Positions 53,001-61,925 of a stretch of DNA of 64,000 nt are shown here, one piece after another. Source of the stretch: Cheilinus undulatus (lineage: Eukaryota; Chordata; Actinopteri; Labriformes; Labridae). A model generated the notes under the pieces. It was not told the origin of the DNA, searched no databases, and worked only from the letters and a program-made list of their open reading frames with translations. The number at the start of each line of letters is the position of its first letter. Position 1 is the stretch's first letter. The position numbers and the translations under genes are program-made. The DNA is taken from NCBI RefSeq assembly GCF_018320785.1, contig NC_054873.1:25696196-25760195 (forward strand), in the 5' to 3' direction.

Positions 53001-53924
53001 CCTGAATGATTGACTCTAAGTCCTTGTACACAAAGCACAGAGACAGAGTTTACTCTACAACTTGAGAAAATTTTGTCCTGAACCAAATAGTTACTTTTAA
53101 AAGTGAAGCTTATGAACTCTACAAATAATTTTAGGAATGGGTGCCACAAATGATTGTTCCCTGCTGTGTACATTAAAGTTTATGCATGGCCTCATTAAAA
53201 AAAATCAATTACTTAGCATCCCATCTACAGGGTGAATACAGAAGATGATTAAAAATTCACTGCTGGGTATTCTGTCTCCTGGCTTTGTTTTTCAGGCTCT
53301 ACATCACAGGCTACACTTTAAAAGACCACTTTCCTGTCAAGATGAAGGCTGTGTAAAAATTAAAGAATGATTATCTTAAGGATGATGCCCCCCCAGCATT
53401 TTAACATCAATCCAAATTGTGCCAAAGATCTCTGTTTGATTGGATTTAGCTTGTGGGGACCCCTGTCATGACAAATTGTATTTGAGATGTATGATATTAA
53501 AGGGAGTTGTTTATTGTAGACTGGAACATGACACACAGAGATAGCAAGGCAGGGTTTAAACATGAGACCAAAAGACATCACAATTAAATTGATCATATAT
53601 TTACATTTTTTGTTGTCTATTGATCAAACAAAAAAGGGAACCCCAACGGGTACTATGTGCTAAAAAAACAATCATCTTACCTCTTTGGTCTCCTTACATT
53701 ATAGTAACTCTTATTTATTAGACTGGTACACCCTCTCCTGGTGATGTTTACCAATTACAATCCTCAGCTTTAAAGGTTACAAAACACAAACACGTGGCTT
53801 GTGTAACTCTAAATCAGCTGTTATTTGGTAACCAACACCGGGTAGCTACAGGAAGATACATTTTAGTCTTTTGGAGTTTTACAGCCTTTTATATCTACAT
53901 TTGATCCTCACCTTTCACCTGAAG

Positions 53925-56900
53925 ATGCCTCCTTCAGCGGGTTCCGACGAAGACAGCAAAGCTTTGGTAAGAAAGGCGTTAAGGGAGGTTCTGGTGGGTC
54001 GAGAGGATCCAGAGGGCTTTTTTGCGATGTGTGTGTCCGCCCTTGGGCACCAGGAGACCCGGTTACATTTCCTGTCCATCATCCAGCCCCTATCGACGGC
54101 CAACATCTCCCTACACTCCATCCTCACTTCCATCTATAGGGAGTATTTTTCAAAGGTTAGTGAAAGCCTGATCATAAGCATGTCGTTTCTGCAGTTTTCT
54201 AGATTAACAGGCAAAGTGGCTCAAAGCAAATGTACAAGTTTAAAAAATGCATCTATTTAATGAAACACGACATTGGGTTGGTGTATTTTGTTTTAAAAGG
54301 CGAGAAAGAAAGGCAACTTAGAGTTAAAGAATCAATCAGTACAAGTTAGGGATTAGTGTTTTAAAATTTAAAATTGTTTTCACGCACCTTACTCACCTGT
54401 GTATGTTGCATAAAGCAGCTCCAAGGCGCACACGACACAAAGTTAGCTTAAAGTTTGACCGCTGAAGTTCTCGTGGCTAACATGTTAGCAAAAACTGTTA
54501 AGCTACGTTGACAAAAACAGGAAAAATAAATTTACCCGTTGACATAACTGTCGCCAACTATAAAATTCAGATACTCCAGTCACATACGCCGTTTTTTGGC
54601 TCATTTTTGTCCACCAGCCCCTTTAGAAAATTAACTGTTGGGAGGGGTAATGTCTACCTTTGCCACCTCTTTACTTGGCTCACTGCCACTGTAAATGACA
54701 GGTAATGCTAGCTAGTGTTAGCTTTGGAGTGTTGTTGTTTTAGCTGAATATCCCACTAAAAAATTAGAAGACAAATAAAAATGAATTATAAGAATGGATA
54801 ATCGTGGATAGATACTGGTGCCTCTTGTGAATACAATCAAACAAGGTGGAAATATTACAGGACTATTGCACTCAGGTAAAAGTAGTTACTCTGGTAAAAA
54901 AGTACTTAAGTACAATAAAGTTACTGATTTAAAAATATATTCAAAAAAGTACAAGGACCCAAAAGTTACAGTAGCTTGCGTAAATGTAATTAATAACTTT
55001 CCACCCCTTCAAAAATAATATAAGGCCTACCTGAATGATGTTTAATCAGTTGAGATAAGCCAAATCTAGGCTCCAAGAATATGAAAGAAAAAAAATGACC
55101 CTAGTATCTATCTTATAATATTCCAACAGTAACTTCCTAGTTTAAATAACAGATTCTGACCAAAAACATTTTTATAAAGAGCAAGCCAAGTGTTTGGTCG
55201 CATGAGTTGTTGTTCACACTATATTAACATTTCAACAATTAACTTTTTGATATTGTCACTACTCGCCCATATGCTTGCAAAATGTGTGCATCAAATGTTA
55301 CATATAACGCAATGATACGGAGTTATTTAAACATTCCTTTGAATAAGTTGTTCTTGTGAACTTCCAGACAGAAGATGATGAACTGGAAGTGGCATTGGCT
55401 CTCTCTCTACTTGAAATGAGAGATCACCAGCTGTCAGCCCCAAGCCAAGAGTCCCAACTCCAACAACATCTTGAAAGACACATCCAAAAAAGCTCCTCTC
55501 AACAGATCTCAAGATCTCAGTCTTGGGGAAACAGTCACACACAGCACACAAATGTAGCTGAAAGCAGAGAAAATACCAACTTGCCAAAAACTGGAGACTT
55601 GGAGAGGGTGAACCAACCAAAAATAAACCTAAAAGGTAACCCAGGGAAAAGTCTCACTATGTGTGCCCCTGTGACTTCTAATTCATTGCGTGAGCATGGC
55701 ACAGCTGAAGGAGGTGGTGGAATGATGCATGAGGGAGATTTGGATCAACCAGAGAAACGGAAACACTCAAAGAACAGGCGACAGCGACGGAAAGGAGCTT
55801 GCCAGCGTATTGTAGGTTTACCCACATCTCCTTCAGCACGGCCACCAGTACTGCTGTGGTTCAGGAGGGACTTGAGACTTTGTGACAATCCTGCTCTGAA
55901 TGGCTCATTGGAGGTTGGTGCACCTGTCATACCTGTCTTTATCTGGAGCCCTAAAGAGGAGGAGGGACCTGGGATTACAGTGGCTATGGGAGGAGCTTGT
56001 GAGTTCTAAGTGGAATAAATTATTTCAGCTTTAGTAATCCCTCTTCTTTTTTTTTTCGTTTTTCCCCTTTTTTTTATTTATAAGTTCAATAAAAATTTCT
56101 GCTGATTGTTGTACAATAACATTTTTTTCCAACAGGCAAATACTGGCTTCATCAAGCTTTGTCTTGTTTCTGCTCGTCTCTGGAGCGCATTGGCAGCCAT
56201 CTTGTCTTCCTCCAAGCAAAAGGAGAGAGTAAAGAGGTTGGATCATCTCTGTGCTGCCTTAAGGAGCTACTGAAGGAGACTGGAGCGAGGACAGTCTTGG
56301 CTAACGCTCTCTATGAGCCATGGCTGAAGGAGAGGGATGATGAAGTGGTGTCAGCCCTTCAGAAAGATGGTGTTGAGTTCAAGATGTTCCATTCATACTG
56401 TCTCAGAGACCCTTACTCTGTCAGCACCGAGGGTGTGGGACTCAGAGGTCAGTCACAACAACAGGAGATTGGTATACTGAGTTCAAATCCATGTTTGTTG
56501 GTCATACAGAAGCTTTTAATGTGTATATGAGTGTGTAGTAGTGTTAATTAGCAGTAAATTGTTGAAAATTAAGGTTGAACTCTTTGTCTCCTTGTTACAG
56601 GCATAGGCTCAGTGTCCCACTTCATGAGCTGCTGTAAGCAGAACCCAGGATCTGCATTGGGAGTTCCCCTGGATCCTCCTGTGGCTCTCCCCTCCCCTTC
56701 CCATTGGCCTCAAGGTGTCTCTTTAGACGAGCTAGGCCTAGCAACCATGCCCCGCAGAAAGGATGGCACCACGGTCAGTATCTACAGATGGTCAATCTTG
56801 TAGGGTCAAGCAACAGCCAAAAAATGTTCAAGTCCTCAGTGTTTCTCTGTGTTCATTTTGGCGTTCAGATTGACTGGGCAGCTAACATTCGCAAATCCTG

Positions 56901-58584
56901 GGATTTTAGTGAAGAAGGAGCACATGCACGATTAGAGGGCTTTCTTCATGATGGTGAGACATCTTACACTTACCAGACTCTGTGCTTGGAGAAGTGGTAT
57001 GAAGTTGGAATTTGATCCATCAGCAGCTTCTGATTAATCCTGTTCCCTAGGTGTCTATAGGTATGAAAAAGAGTCAGGAAGGGCAGATGCTCCAAACACC
57101 AGCTGTCTGTCTCCATACATTCACTTTGGTCAGCTCAGTCCACGCTGGCTAATGTGGGATGCCAAAGGTGCGCGTTGTCGACCCCCAAAATTCCAACGTA
57201 AACTGGCATGGCGAGATTTGGCTTACTGGCAGCTAACATTGTTTCCTGACCTCCCCTGGGAATCCCTCAGGCCGCCATACAAGGTAGGTGGTTAAAAGTT
57301 GAGGTAAAACCTGCTTATACTATAAAAATTAACATATAATGAAAAGTGATTTTTTTCTAATGGTAATTATAGGTGTTACGGTGGAGCAATAATCACAGCC
57401 ACTTAAAAGCCTGGCAGCGAGGTCGAACAGGTTATCCTCTAGTGGACGCAGCCATGAGGCAGCTGTGGCTGACAGGTTGGATGAACAACTACATGAGGCA
57501 TGTGGTAGCATCTTTTCTCATTGCATATCTTTACCTGCCCTGGCAGGAAGGCTATCGCTGGTTCCAGGTAAGCGATGCATTTAAAGGACTCAGTTCACTC
57601 AAATAGATAAACGTGCATGTATGCATAAGTACCAATATCTGTATCCAAACATTTTATATGTTCAGGACACCCTCGTAGATGCAGACGTTGCTATAGATGC
57701 TATGATGTGGCAGAATGGGGGCATGTGTGGTCTGGACCACTGGAACTTTGTCATGCACCCTGTTGATGCTGCAATGACCTGTGACCCCTGTGGCAGTTAT
57801 GTAAGGAAGTGGTGCCCTGAGCTTTCCGATCTGCCTGACGAGGTCATTCACAAACCCTGGAAGTGTCCTGTGTCTATGCTTCGACGTGCTGGTGAGATTA
57901 TCATCACAAAGCTGTTTGAGTAATTGTTTGCATTTAAAATAAGTTTCACAGTCCAGAAAACTGTGTATGTTTTTTAAATTCTTTCTACAGTGTACAGATT
58001 CACACCACAATCAATAAATCTCCTCTGCTCTTCTCTTAGGTGTGGTGTTTGGCCAGACATACCCTGAGCGAATTGTTACAGACCTGGAGGAGCGGAGGAA
58101 TCACTCTCTGCAGGATGTAGCCCTAGTGCGGAGAGAATTTGGTCAGTATGTGGACAAGCGCTCAGGCTGTGATTTGGTCCCCCTGCCTCCACGTCTGGTC
58201 TCTGAGGCTCTGGGATTATCACACAGAGATGGGGGTGTGGTGAAGGAAGGAAAGCAGTTTTTGTTGCCAGTTATCACCCGCATGGAATTCAAACACCAGC
58301 TGGAAGATCCTGATGCAGATGCTGCCTCAAATCCCTACAATGCCGTCTTAAAAGGATACGTCAGTCGCAAAAGGGACGAGACCATTGCGTTCCTAAATGA
58401 AAGAGACTTCACTGCCAGTGTGATGTATGAAGGAGCCCAGAGAAAGGAGAGGTTGGAGAGTGACTATCGCAGAATGGAGGGACTCCCCAGGCTTCCTGCA
58501 CCTCGGGGCAAGGCAAGGCGAACTACAACTGCTAAAGACAGGTTCTCTACAGTTCCTGGTGGGGCAGTCACCTCACTCAAGTGA
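53925..58584 (+). CDS. Plant-like cryptochrome/photolyase with N-terminal ubiquitin-interacting motif
   Basis: A flavoprotein of the photolyase/cryptochrome family. Exons: 53925-54155, 55368-55998, 56136-56447, 56601-56773, 56869-56953, 57051-57283, 57373-57567, 57666-57891, 58040-58584; 2,631 nt, 876 aa, all phases agree. Residues 1-77 form a helical region I do not recognise. A ubiquitin-interacting motif follows at 80-95 (DDELEVALALSLLE), then a polar linker with a basic nuclear signal at 207-219 (KRKHSKNRRQRRK). The antenna/alpha-beta domain starts near 237 (PVLLWFRRDLRLCDNPAL). The FAD region shows TSCLSPYIHFGQLSPR (494-509) and GRTGYPLVDAAM (572-583). The Trp triad is W559, W612 and W635. 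D631 in DADVAID sits where photolyases have Asn next to flavin N5; plant cryptochromes have Asp there. The (6-4) photolyase HH pair is replaced by NN (593-594). So it is not a (6-4) or DASH enzyme by these motifs. Light sensing or repair activity cannot be decided from sequence. The start is the first ATG in frame after the upstream AT-rich stretch. Confidence 0.9.
54840..55015. mobile_element. Remnant of an AGTTACT-type non-autonomous DNA element
   Basis: CTCAGGTAAAAGTAGTTACT, AAGTACTTAAGTACAATAAA and TAATAACTTTCCACCCCTTC resemble the short phrases of the hAT-type insert in the calumenin intron (CTTGAGTACAA, TTTTTCCACCTCTG). The ends and target duplication are not clear. It lies in the first intron of the cryptochrome gene. 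Confidence 0.5.
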
Positions 58585-59806: not shown

Positions 59807-61925
59807 TTAGTCCTCAATAGAACGAATGTATCTCTCATAGGCTGCTTCATCCATCAATGCATCAAGCTCTTCAGGTTTGGTGATGGTCATCTTCATAAGC
59901 CAACCTGTAGGGAGAAGGTTAAAACCATGGTTAGATGATAGAAAATGGCCATACTCTAGTGTTGCATATGTAGGCCAGTCTGAGCTTAAAGGAATTAGAC
60001 AATCCGTTACACATTGGATCTGGTTTATTATTGCCATACAGTGATACTACAAATCTGACATGAAAAACAGAGCCTCAATATGATTGATTACTCACTCAAC
60101 CTCAGTTTCTAATCCAAGTGGATGGCTTTATTTTGATAGTGGAAAACCTCAATTGTTTAAGAAGGAGGAAAAAACAACTAATGTCGGATGCCTTGAAATA
60201 TACCTTGAAAATTTTTAATTTAATTTACCTGGGTCACTGAGAATGGCTAAAACATCCTTTATTATTGGTAGAGTTGTAGTTTAAAAATGTACATAAAGAT
60301 ATTTCTTTAGAAGTTAAACTTCACGTTCAAAACAAAGTATTTACACGTAATCACATTTTATTTAAATCATACAAAACCTTTTATGTTGTAATGCTGCCAT
60401 CTACTGTTCAAAAGAAATAAACTTTGTTTGCATTTCTTGAAACATCTTATTAGTTAATGTGTTAAAGTAAAAAAAGATTGTTAGTATTAGGAAATAACTT
60501 TATTTTTTTTTCTAAGTACAAAGCTATTACGAGATAAAAGGAGACTATGCTGAAGAGATATGCAGGGTACAGTGTCAATGTGCAAACTGTAGAAATCACT
60601 TTATTTACCATGTTTTCAAAAATTGCATCAAAACTGTGCATGATGTTTAATAAACATTATGATCTTCTTCAATTTACCTTCTTTCACTTTCAGAGCCTTC
60701 TTTAAAAATAATACTATCTCCATTAGCAGACCGTACTTACCATCTTTGTAGCAGGACTTGTTGACCAAACCGGGTTTGTCTGCCAGTAGTGAATTGACCT
60801 CTACAACTTCCCCTGTCAAAGGAGAATAAAGCTCACTGGCTGCTTTGACACTTTCCAGGGCTCCAAATTCATCTGTGAGAAAAGAAGTCAGACACAACTG
60901 CAATTAGAGCCTCTTGACAGATGTAAAAGTACACAATGGAGACAAGCATTGCTGGCTCACTTATTTGGTCTTAATTAAGACAGACAGTGGCATGACAGCG
61001 TTTGCCTCACCAGAGGTGCTAAACAATGAATAAAGTTTACAACAGAAGATATTTCTACTAGCTGAGAGATTAGTCTATAAGAGGCACAAATACATGTTGA
61101 TGCGATTGCTTCGGAATGTCTGTTGTTAAAAAATACCAGACATTTTATTATTAATTCTGCCTAATAATTGAGATAAGACTGAAACATCAGAATATTACTA
61201 AGCTTACCAAAACAAACGTTAAAAAATTTGGACCACTAAAGTGTTGTCTGTTAAAGAGGGTCCATCTCAATAACCCCCACCCCCCCCCTTTTTTGTTTTT
61301 CTAATGTATTTTTAACAAGACCCCAGTGAGCTTCATACCTTGCTGAGCCAGCTGTGTTCCCACCTCTGGTAGTCCACAGTACACTACATCACCAAGAGCC
61401 TCCTACAAGTGATATAAAGTTGGGTAAATGATAGTGGCAAACACATCCTTAAGGCAGCGCTCTCGTGCATGTCATGGATTGTGAGTATACCTTGGCTCCT
61501 GGCCAGGAGAACTAACCTGGGCAAAGTTGCTGATGCCGACAGTCCCAATCCCGTCCTCTTCTACTCGGATCCATTCGTGCTTGTCTGTGAATTTTAGTGC
61601 TGTAAAATAACAGAATAGACTCAGAATACTAAGAACCCCTAGAGACAAGACAAACAGACATGCAGCACTGTCGTCATCTCTCGTGTCCTTTACTCACTGT
61701 TAGCTCATTTTACCTTTAAGCTACCAACAATGTTAGCTAATAAGCGACAATAAAACAAAGCGACAACGGAATACCTGCTGTTAATCTACTAGATGAGACC
61801 AGCGTTCGTCTGAAACAAGGTGTAGGACCCAGGCGCAATGAGGAAAGCTGTGCCGACCGTGTGAGAGAAGGCAAAACTGCAATGAAGTTGGAAGACACGG
61901 AGCGGAGTAGCCTACAGGCGGCCAT
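59807..61925 (-). CDS. gcsh: Glycine cleavage system H protein, mitochondrial
   Basis: The H protein carries the lipoyl arm that shuttles the aminomethyl group between the P, T and L proteins of the glycine cleavage system in the mitochondrial matrix; it is also a relay in lipoate transfer. Minus-strand exons: 61925-61775, 61599-61517, 61402-61339, 60872-60741, 59904-59807; 528 nt, 175 aa, phases agree (human 173 aa). Residues 1-50 are rich in Arg, Ser and Leu with no acidic residues ([12 protein letters not shown]), a mitochondrial targeting peptide. The core starts [29 protein letters not shown] follows. The lipoylated lysine is K109 in [13 protein letters not shown]. The end is [12 protein letters not shown], as in vertebrate GCSH. 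All expected motifs are present and the gene is intact. It faces the cryptochrome gene tail to tail. Confidence 0.97.

Follow-up and report, generated by a model that had tools for sequence, protein, structure and literature searches.

A cryptochrome 6 gene of Cheilinus undulatus predicted to join a plant-type flavin site to a ubiquitin-interacting motif

In a 64,000-nucleotide stretch of the Cheilinus undulatus genome (NCBI RefSeq assembly GCF_018320785.1, contig NC_054873.1, positions 25,696,196 to 25,760,195 of the forward strand; hereafter the window), we identified a single intact gene at window positions 53925-58584 on the plus strand, whose nine exons are separated by GT-AG introns and code for 876 amino acids (aa) in one open frame. 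Judged by its sequence, the gene is cryptochrome 6 (CRY6), a member of the PCRY-like group. We put at roughly 0.85 the probability that its product would be a flavin adenine dinucleotide (FAD)-binding blue-light redox switch of plant type, not a repair enzyme, with a helical ubiquitin-interacting motif (UIM) that would bind ubiquitin or ubiquitylated proteins. CRY6, its extension and the ubiquitin binding of its UIM are already known from published work and are not new. What is added here is modest, i.e., a further intact orthologue, residues that favour a sensor over a repair enzyme, and a promoter element that is a candidate for light response. The parts of the gene, in window coordinates, are as follows:

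53925 to 54155, plus strand: exon 1, aa 1-77, opening the N-terminal extension of CRY6, with helices predicted at low confidence
55368 to 55998, plus strand: exon 2, aa 78-287, with the UIM, a linker, a basic stretch and the start of the photolyase domain
55374 to 55415, plus strand: UIM DDELEVALALSLLE, aa 80-93, with a frog counterpart described in PMC11520951
55752 to 55799, plus strand: basic stretch EKRKHSKNRRQRRKGA, aa 206-221, probably matching the nuclear/nucleolar localization signal (NLS/NoLS) of CRY6
56136 to 56447, plus strand: exon 3, photolyase alpha/beta domain, with motif pl1, VGLR (aa 388)
56601 to 56773, plus strand: exon 4
56869 to 56953, plus strand: exon 5
57051 to 57283, plus strand: exon 6, start of the FAD domain, with motif pl2, WRDLAY (aa 531)
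57373 to 57567, plus strand: exon 7, with Trp559 and Trp612 of the Trp triad
57666 to 57891, plus strand: exon 8, with the N5-proximal Asp631, Trp635 and motif pl3, MWQNGG (aa 634)
58040 to 58584, plus strand: exon 9, end of the FAD domain, C-terminal extension and stop codon

UIMs consist of an acidic run followed by a core of the form A-x3-S-x2-acidic, and both elements are present in DDELEVALALSLLE. A strict expression of the consensus (three acidic residues, a hydrophobic residue, then x-x-A-x-x-x-S-x-x-acidic), matches the protein once. Shuffling aa 1-237 produced a match in 11 of 200,000 trials, and shuffling the whole protein in 11 of 50,000, the corresponding counts for a looser form being 304/200,000 and 321/50,000; a chance match of DDELEVALALSLLE to the strict pattern is thus unlikely at the sequence level. 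When the motif was compared with the printed 28-residue frog CRY6 peptide of PMC11520951, which has ETDLELAIALSLQE at this place, eight of 14 residues were identical, and frog Ala90, Ser94 and Glu97 stand at the positions of Ala86, Ser90 and Glu93 in the first UIM register. It is this apparent orthology with frog CRY6 that settles the motif as a UIM. An earlier reading of this DNA, made from the sequence only, had proposed a UIM in a protein of the photolyase/cryptochrome family, and both the strict pattern match and the frog core residues bear this out. Its start at aa 80 was placed correctly; its end, given as aa 95, moves to aa 93. That reading had also set conservation of the Ala and Ser beforehand as a refutation test, and the frog orthologue keeps both, together with the Glu.

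CRY6 of Xenopus tropicalis (LC705158) was cloned by Okano et al. (2023; PMC11520951), who described its N-terminal extension and a UIM that is overlapping, double-sided and inverted (DI-UIM), and conserved in Takifugu and zebrafish. In glutathione S-transferase (GST) pull-downs the frog motif bound K48 polyubiquitin, and a shuffled motif bound less (PMC11520951). The sequence-only statement that no characterised protein of this family carries its own ubiquitin-binding motif is therefore out of date.

The second half of our reading concerns the flavin site. The N5-proximal Asp and the Trp triad have roles in the flavin switch of plant-type cryptochromes, and the residues of E. coli photolyase that contact the dimer are E274, W277, N341, R342, M345 and W384. 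When the residues were aligned with those of E. coli Phr, 4u63 and the plant cryptochrome chains 6x24 and 6lz3, the N5-proximal residue was found to be Asp631, as in both plant chains, the equivalent in E. coli Phr and 4u63 being Asn. The Trp triad (W559/W612/W635) is intact and the Arg-Asp salt bridge is kept; in 6lz3, one of the plant chains, Ala replaces the middle Trp. Four of the six dimer contacts are changed, with E. coli E274, R342, M345 and W384 replaced by K, Y, H and N, respectively. The retention of Asp631 and the triad, together with the four changed contacts, favours a light receptor, which on residue identity is likelier than a DNA-repair enzyme. Recruitment to damage sites, as first suggested for this protein, is disfavoured by the same four differences from E. 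coli photolyase.

The assignment to CRY6 rests on domains and motifs. The photolyase alpha/beta domain (PF00875, aa 238-386, E 2.7e-29) and the FAD-binding domain (PF03441, aa 525-720, E 5.5e-67) both scored far above cut-off. According to the accessible part of PMC9498864, three motifs (VGLR, WRDLAY and MWQNxG) define PCRY-like proteins, the third being found in 100 of 103 PCRY-like sequences and in 0 of 2144 others, and vertebrate PCRY-like genes occur in neopterygian fishes and frogs. All three motifs are present here. The name Cry6 has also been given to a different, Drosophila-type invertebrate group, as the available portions of PMC7553075 and PMC4350181 indicate.

Several observations weigh against our reading. 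On a 39-aa fragment, the Pfam models UIM_2 (PF23625) and UIM (PF02809) reached only 18.1 and 14.4 bits, both below the 21-bit cut-off, and on the whole protein UIM_2 was the only UIM model to appear (11.2 bits, E 0.49). The profile test, which had been proposed along with the motif, would therefore not call it by itself. The solved chain nearest to the protein is a photolyase, 4u63 (287.5 bits), ahead of six cryptochrome chains that we take to be from plants (237-243) and a next chain at 163.8. The plant cryptochrome model TIGR02766, which was the best of five NCBIfam hits, scored 280.1, far below its cut-off of 603.85, so that the protein does not count as a true plant cryptochrome. At W277 and N341 the photolyase residue is kept. 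Full-length frog CRY6 was mostly cytoplasmic in HEK293 cells, its basic peptide being nucleolar, and its chromophore binding and photosensitivity are stated to remain to be assessed (PMC11520951).

The Pfam scores speak for a first alternative, in which DDELEVALALSLLE would be an acidic helix that has its Ala and Ser by chance and does nothing with ubiquitin in this animal. The UIM's second register, offset by two, points the same way, since it has Leu92 in place of Ser (Gln in the frog peptide). We nevertheless hold this to be very improbable, given the rarity of the strict pattern in shuffles of aa 1-237, the residues shared with frog CRY6, including Ala, Ser and Glu, and the polyubiquitin binding and fish conservation reported in PMC11520951. 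A sequence search for solved UIM relatives returned two chains, at E 0.77 and 3.1, both too weak to count; the second was Vps27p, a protein with UIMs.

The second alternative is that the protein is a DNA photolyase which the UIM brings to ubiquitylated chromatin at sites of UV damage. The match to 4u63 and the two kept dimer contacts fit such an enzyme, as does Takifugu Cry6, which is blue-light induced and falls into one group with photolyase genes (PMC5394683, in the part available). Against it stand the changes at E274, R342, M345 and W384, the replacement of the N5-proximal Asn by Asp, and the mainly cytoplasmic location of the full-length frog protein (PMC11520951). The bacterial relatives of the photolyase region add to this. 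A single scan of bacterial sequences returned four loci, 39-45% identical over the best segment, whose titles name Caulobacter (two), Caulobacterales (one) and a Proteobacteria metagenome-assembled genome labelled CAULO1. The N5-proximal residue is Asn in all four, and Glu stands at the E274 position in three, the fourth having a gap that stems from a truncated frame. We regard a repair role of this kind as improbable, and retain the light receptor as the preferred reading.

A prokaryotic source of the photolyase region was also considered and set aside. All four bacterial loci have NWQW in place of the MWQN of CRY6 and thus lack pl3, so they are read as ordinary photolyases. A tree that included them comprised nine sequences, one of them (L021) in a truncated frame, and did not have the size needed to place CRY6. 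A single scan of viral contigs gave no match.

The two exons on which the UIM claim depended (53925-54155 and 55368-55998) are present and are joined in phase with seven more in the 876-aa frame. Splice sites were varied within 4 bases of each junction, and two of the combinations tried yielded a single open frame; the only difference between these two is at the join of exons 1 and 2 (K-TE-DDELEV versus K-VK-DDELEV), the motif core being identical. At this junction (window 54155-54160 and 55364-55372) there are two donors and two acceptors, each 4 bases apart; matched use keeps the frame, giving TE or VK, and mixed use would shift it. The existence of two in-frame joins leaves some room for a prediction artefact, in which another transcript would include exon 1 or the beginning of exon 2. 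This is scarcely credible, as exon 2 itself reads from the UIM into the photolyase domain in one frame, and the same order of parts is found in published CRY6 proteins (PMC11520951). The suggestion that alternative splicing might add or drop the motif fared less well. Exon 2, whose 631 nucleotides are not a multiple of three (631 mod 3 = 1), carries the UIM together with the first 50 photolyase-domain residues, and skipping it would break both frame and fold; exon skipping therefore cannot neatly add or drop the UIM, and optional splicing by that route is unlikely. An alternative acceptor within exon 2 could do so.

The N-terminal extension is made up of exon 1 and most of exon 2 and runs to the photolyase domain at aa 238. 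Within its basic stretch, KRKHSKNRRQRRK (aa 207-219) fits, by its residues, the basic NLS/NoLS stretch of CRY6. A single-sequence fold of aa 1-107 gave five helices, including that of the UIM, at a low-confidence predicted local distance difference test (pLDDT) score of 53.7, and is read as speaking neither way on the KaiA/RbsU-like four-helix N-terminal fold reported for Xenopus CRY6 (PMC11520951). When this model was submitted to Foldseek, none of 106 matches with E <= 10 reached E <= 0.001; the best of them, at 0.82, was to a designed protein. For exon 1 by itself, Pfam returned only Drf_FH3 (E 0.21), under cut-off. In a six-frame search of the fish's own genome (1.17 Gb, 46 contigs), with five candidates scored, no second copy of the extension was found; there were four matches, of which exons 1 and 2 themselves gave E 7.2e-45 and 2.6e-9, and the remaining two (E 1.56 and 2.4) were taken as chance.

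One further feature lies upstream of the coding sequence:

53791 to 53806, plus strand: paired E-box and D-box-like element CACGTGGCTTGTGTAA, a possible light-responsive element lying 118 bases ahead of the ATG

It consists of the E-box CACGTG, a 2-base gap and the D-box-like TTGTGTAA, a D-box with one mismatch. Since the pattern was chosen after inspection, its occurrence in 0 of 100 shuffles is optimistic. With gaps of 0-10, the genome holds 80 + 73 = 153 sites for the pattern and 394 + 361 = 755 for a reversed control; the reversed pattern being the commoner, the pair is rare but not enriched. In the window, there are 7 copies of CACGTG alone where 4.4 are expected, and 126 of TTAYGTAA with up to one mismatch where 113 are expected. 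In zebrafish, per2 needs E- and D-boxes to be induced by light, according to the accessible parts of PMC2759001 and PMC3039656. The former places the per2 E-box at -174 to -169 and the D-box at -154 to -145, i.e., 14 bases apart (17 in an artificial module), versus 2 here. As a light-responsive element of cry6, the pair is a lead only.

Just downstream of cry6 is what its domain matches mark as a convergent gcsh gene. Matches to the glycine cleavage H-protein (PF01597) were detected in three stretches of window 59807-61693 on the minus strand (E 1.4e-16, 1.9e-6 and 0.0023, the last below cut-off). Elsewhere in the genome, seven of 13 matches to the CRY-DASH model cluster on one contig (C19, 12701152-12710251, minus strand). 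These run exon by exon, with a best score of 101.2 bits for one exon and none at the whole-protein cut-off, as expected for single exons. As predicted matches, they agree with the statement, in the available part of PMC9498864, that species with PCRY-like genes nearly always have DASH-CRY.

We infer FAD binding, light sensing and a possible coupling of light to ubiquitin for this CRY6. The photolyase fold would bind FAD and act as a blue-light-driven redox switch of the plant-cryptochrome type, and the helix at aa 80-93 would bind ubiquitin or ubiquitylated proteins, probably tethering ubiquitylated partners. A light-driven change in the fold may alter the choice of these partners or the place where they are bound. 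What CRY6 does physiologically is described as not fully understood, and light-dependent regulation via ubiquitin binding has been put forward for it as a proposal only (PMC11520951). The earlier sequence-only idea that the protein may pass a light signal to ubiquitin-dependent turnover thus has a counterpart in print. A demonstrated light-gated ubiquitin interaction of CRY6 was not found among the open-licence papers listed, in the portions available. The fuller scheme, in which CRY6 would be a vertebrate light-gated ubiquitin receptor, with the gene switched on through the E-box/D-box pair and an Asp-gated plant-type photocycle controlling engagement of ubiquitylated partners by the UIM, we consider doubtful. 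If it were true, light would be linked to ubiquitin in fish and frogs in a way that parallels the cryptochrome-COP1 pathway of plants. A vertebrate protein that combines a fold absorbing light with a helix binding ubiquitin would be unusual as a signalling device.

Among known systems, 4u63, which we assume to be a class III PhrA, a bacterial photolyase, has the Trp triad and the Arg-Asp pair in common with CRY6 here, but has Asn instead of Asp near N5 and differs at four of the six dimer contacts. Its 498-residue chain is matched from residue 26 and so is without a comparable extension. Identities were 176/460 for 4u63, 149/453 for 6x24, 154/448 for 6lz3 and 135/456 for E. coli Phr. The PCRY-like subfamily, as set out in the accessible part of PMC9498864, shares pl1, pl2 and pl3 with the present gene; a UIM extension is not mentioned there. 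Takifugu rubripes CRY6 (LC177518/LC177519) is likened to it by published description, as a plant-like fish gene, nearer to plant CRYs than to other animal CRYs in the available text of PMC5394683, with a UIM reported to be conserved. Xenopus tropicalis CRY6 has, as here, an extension of ~200 aa with a UIM at ~aa 84-97 (the eight-of-14 match given above) and a basic NLS/NoLS, followed by a plant-like photolyase homology region and a C-terminal extension.

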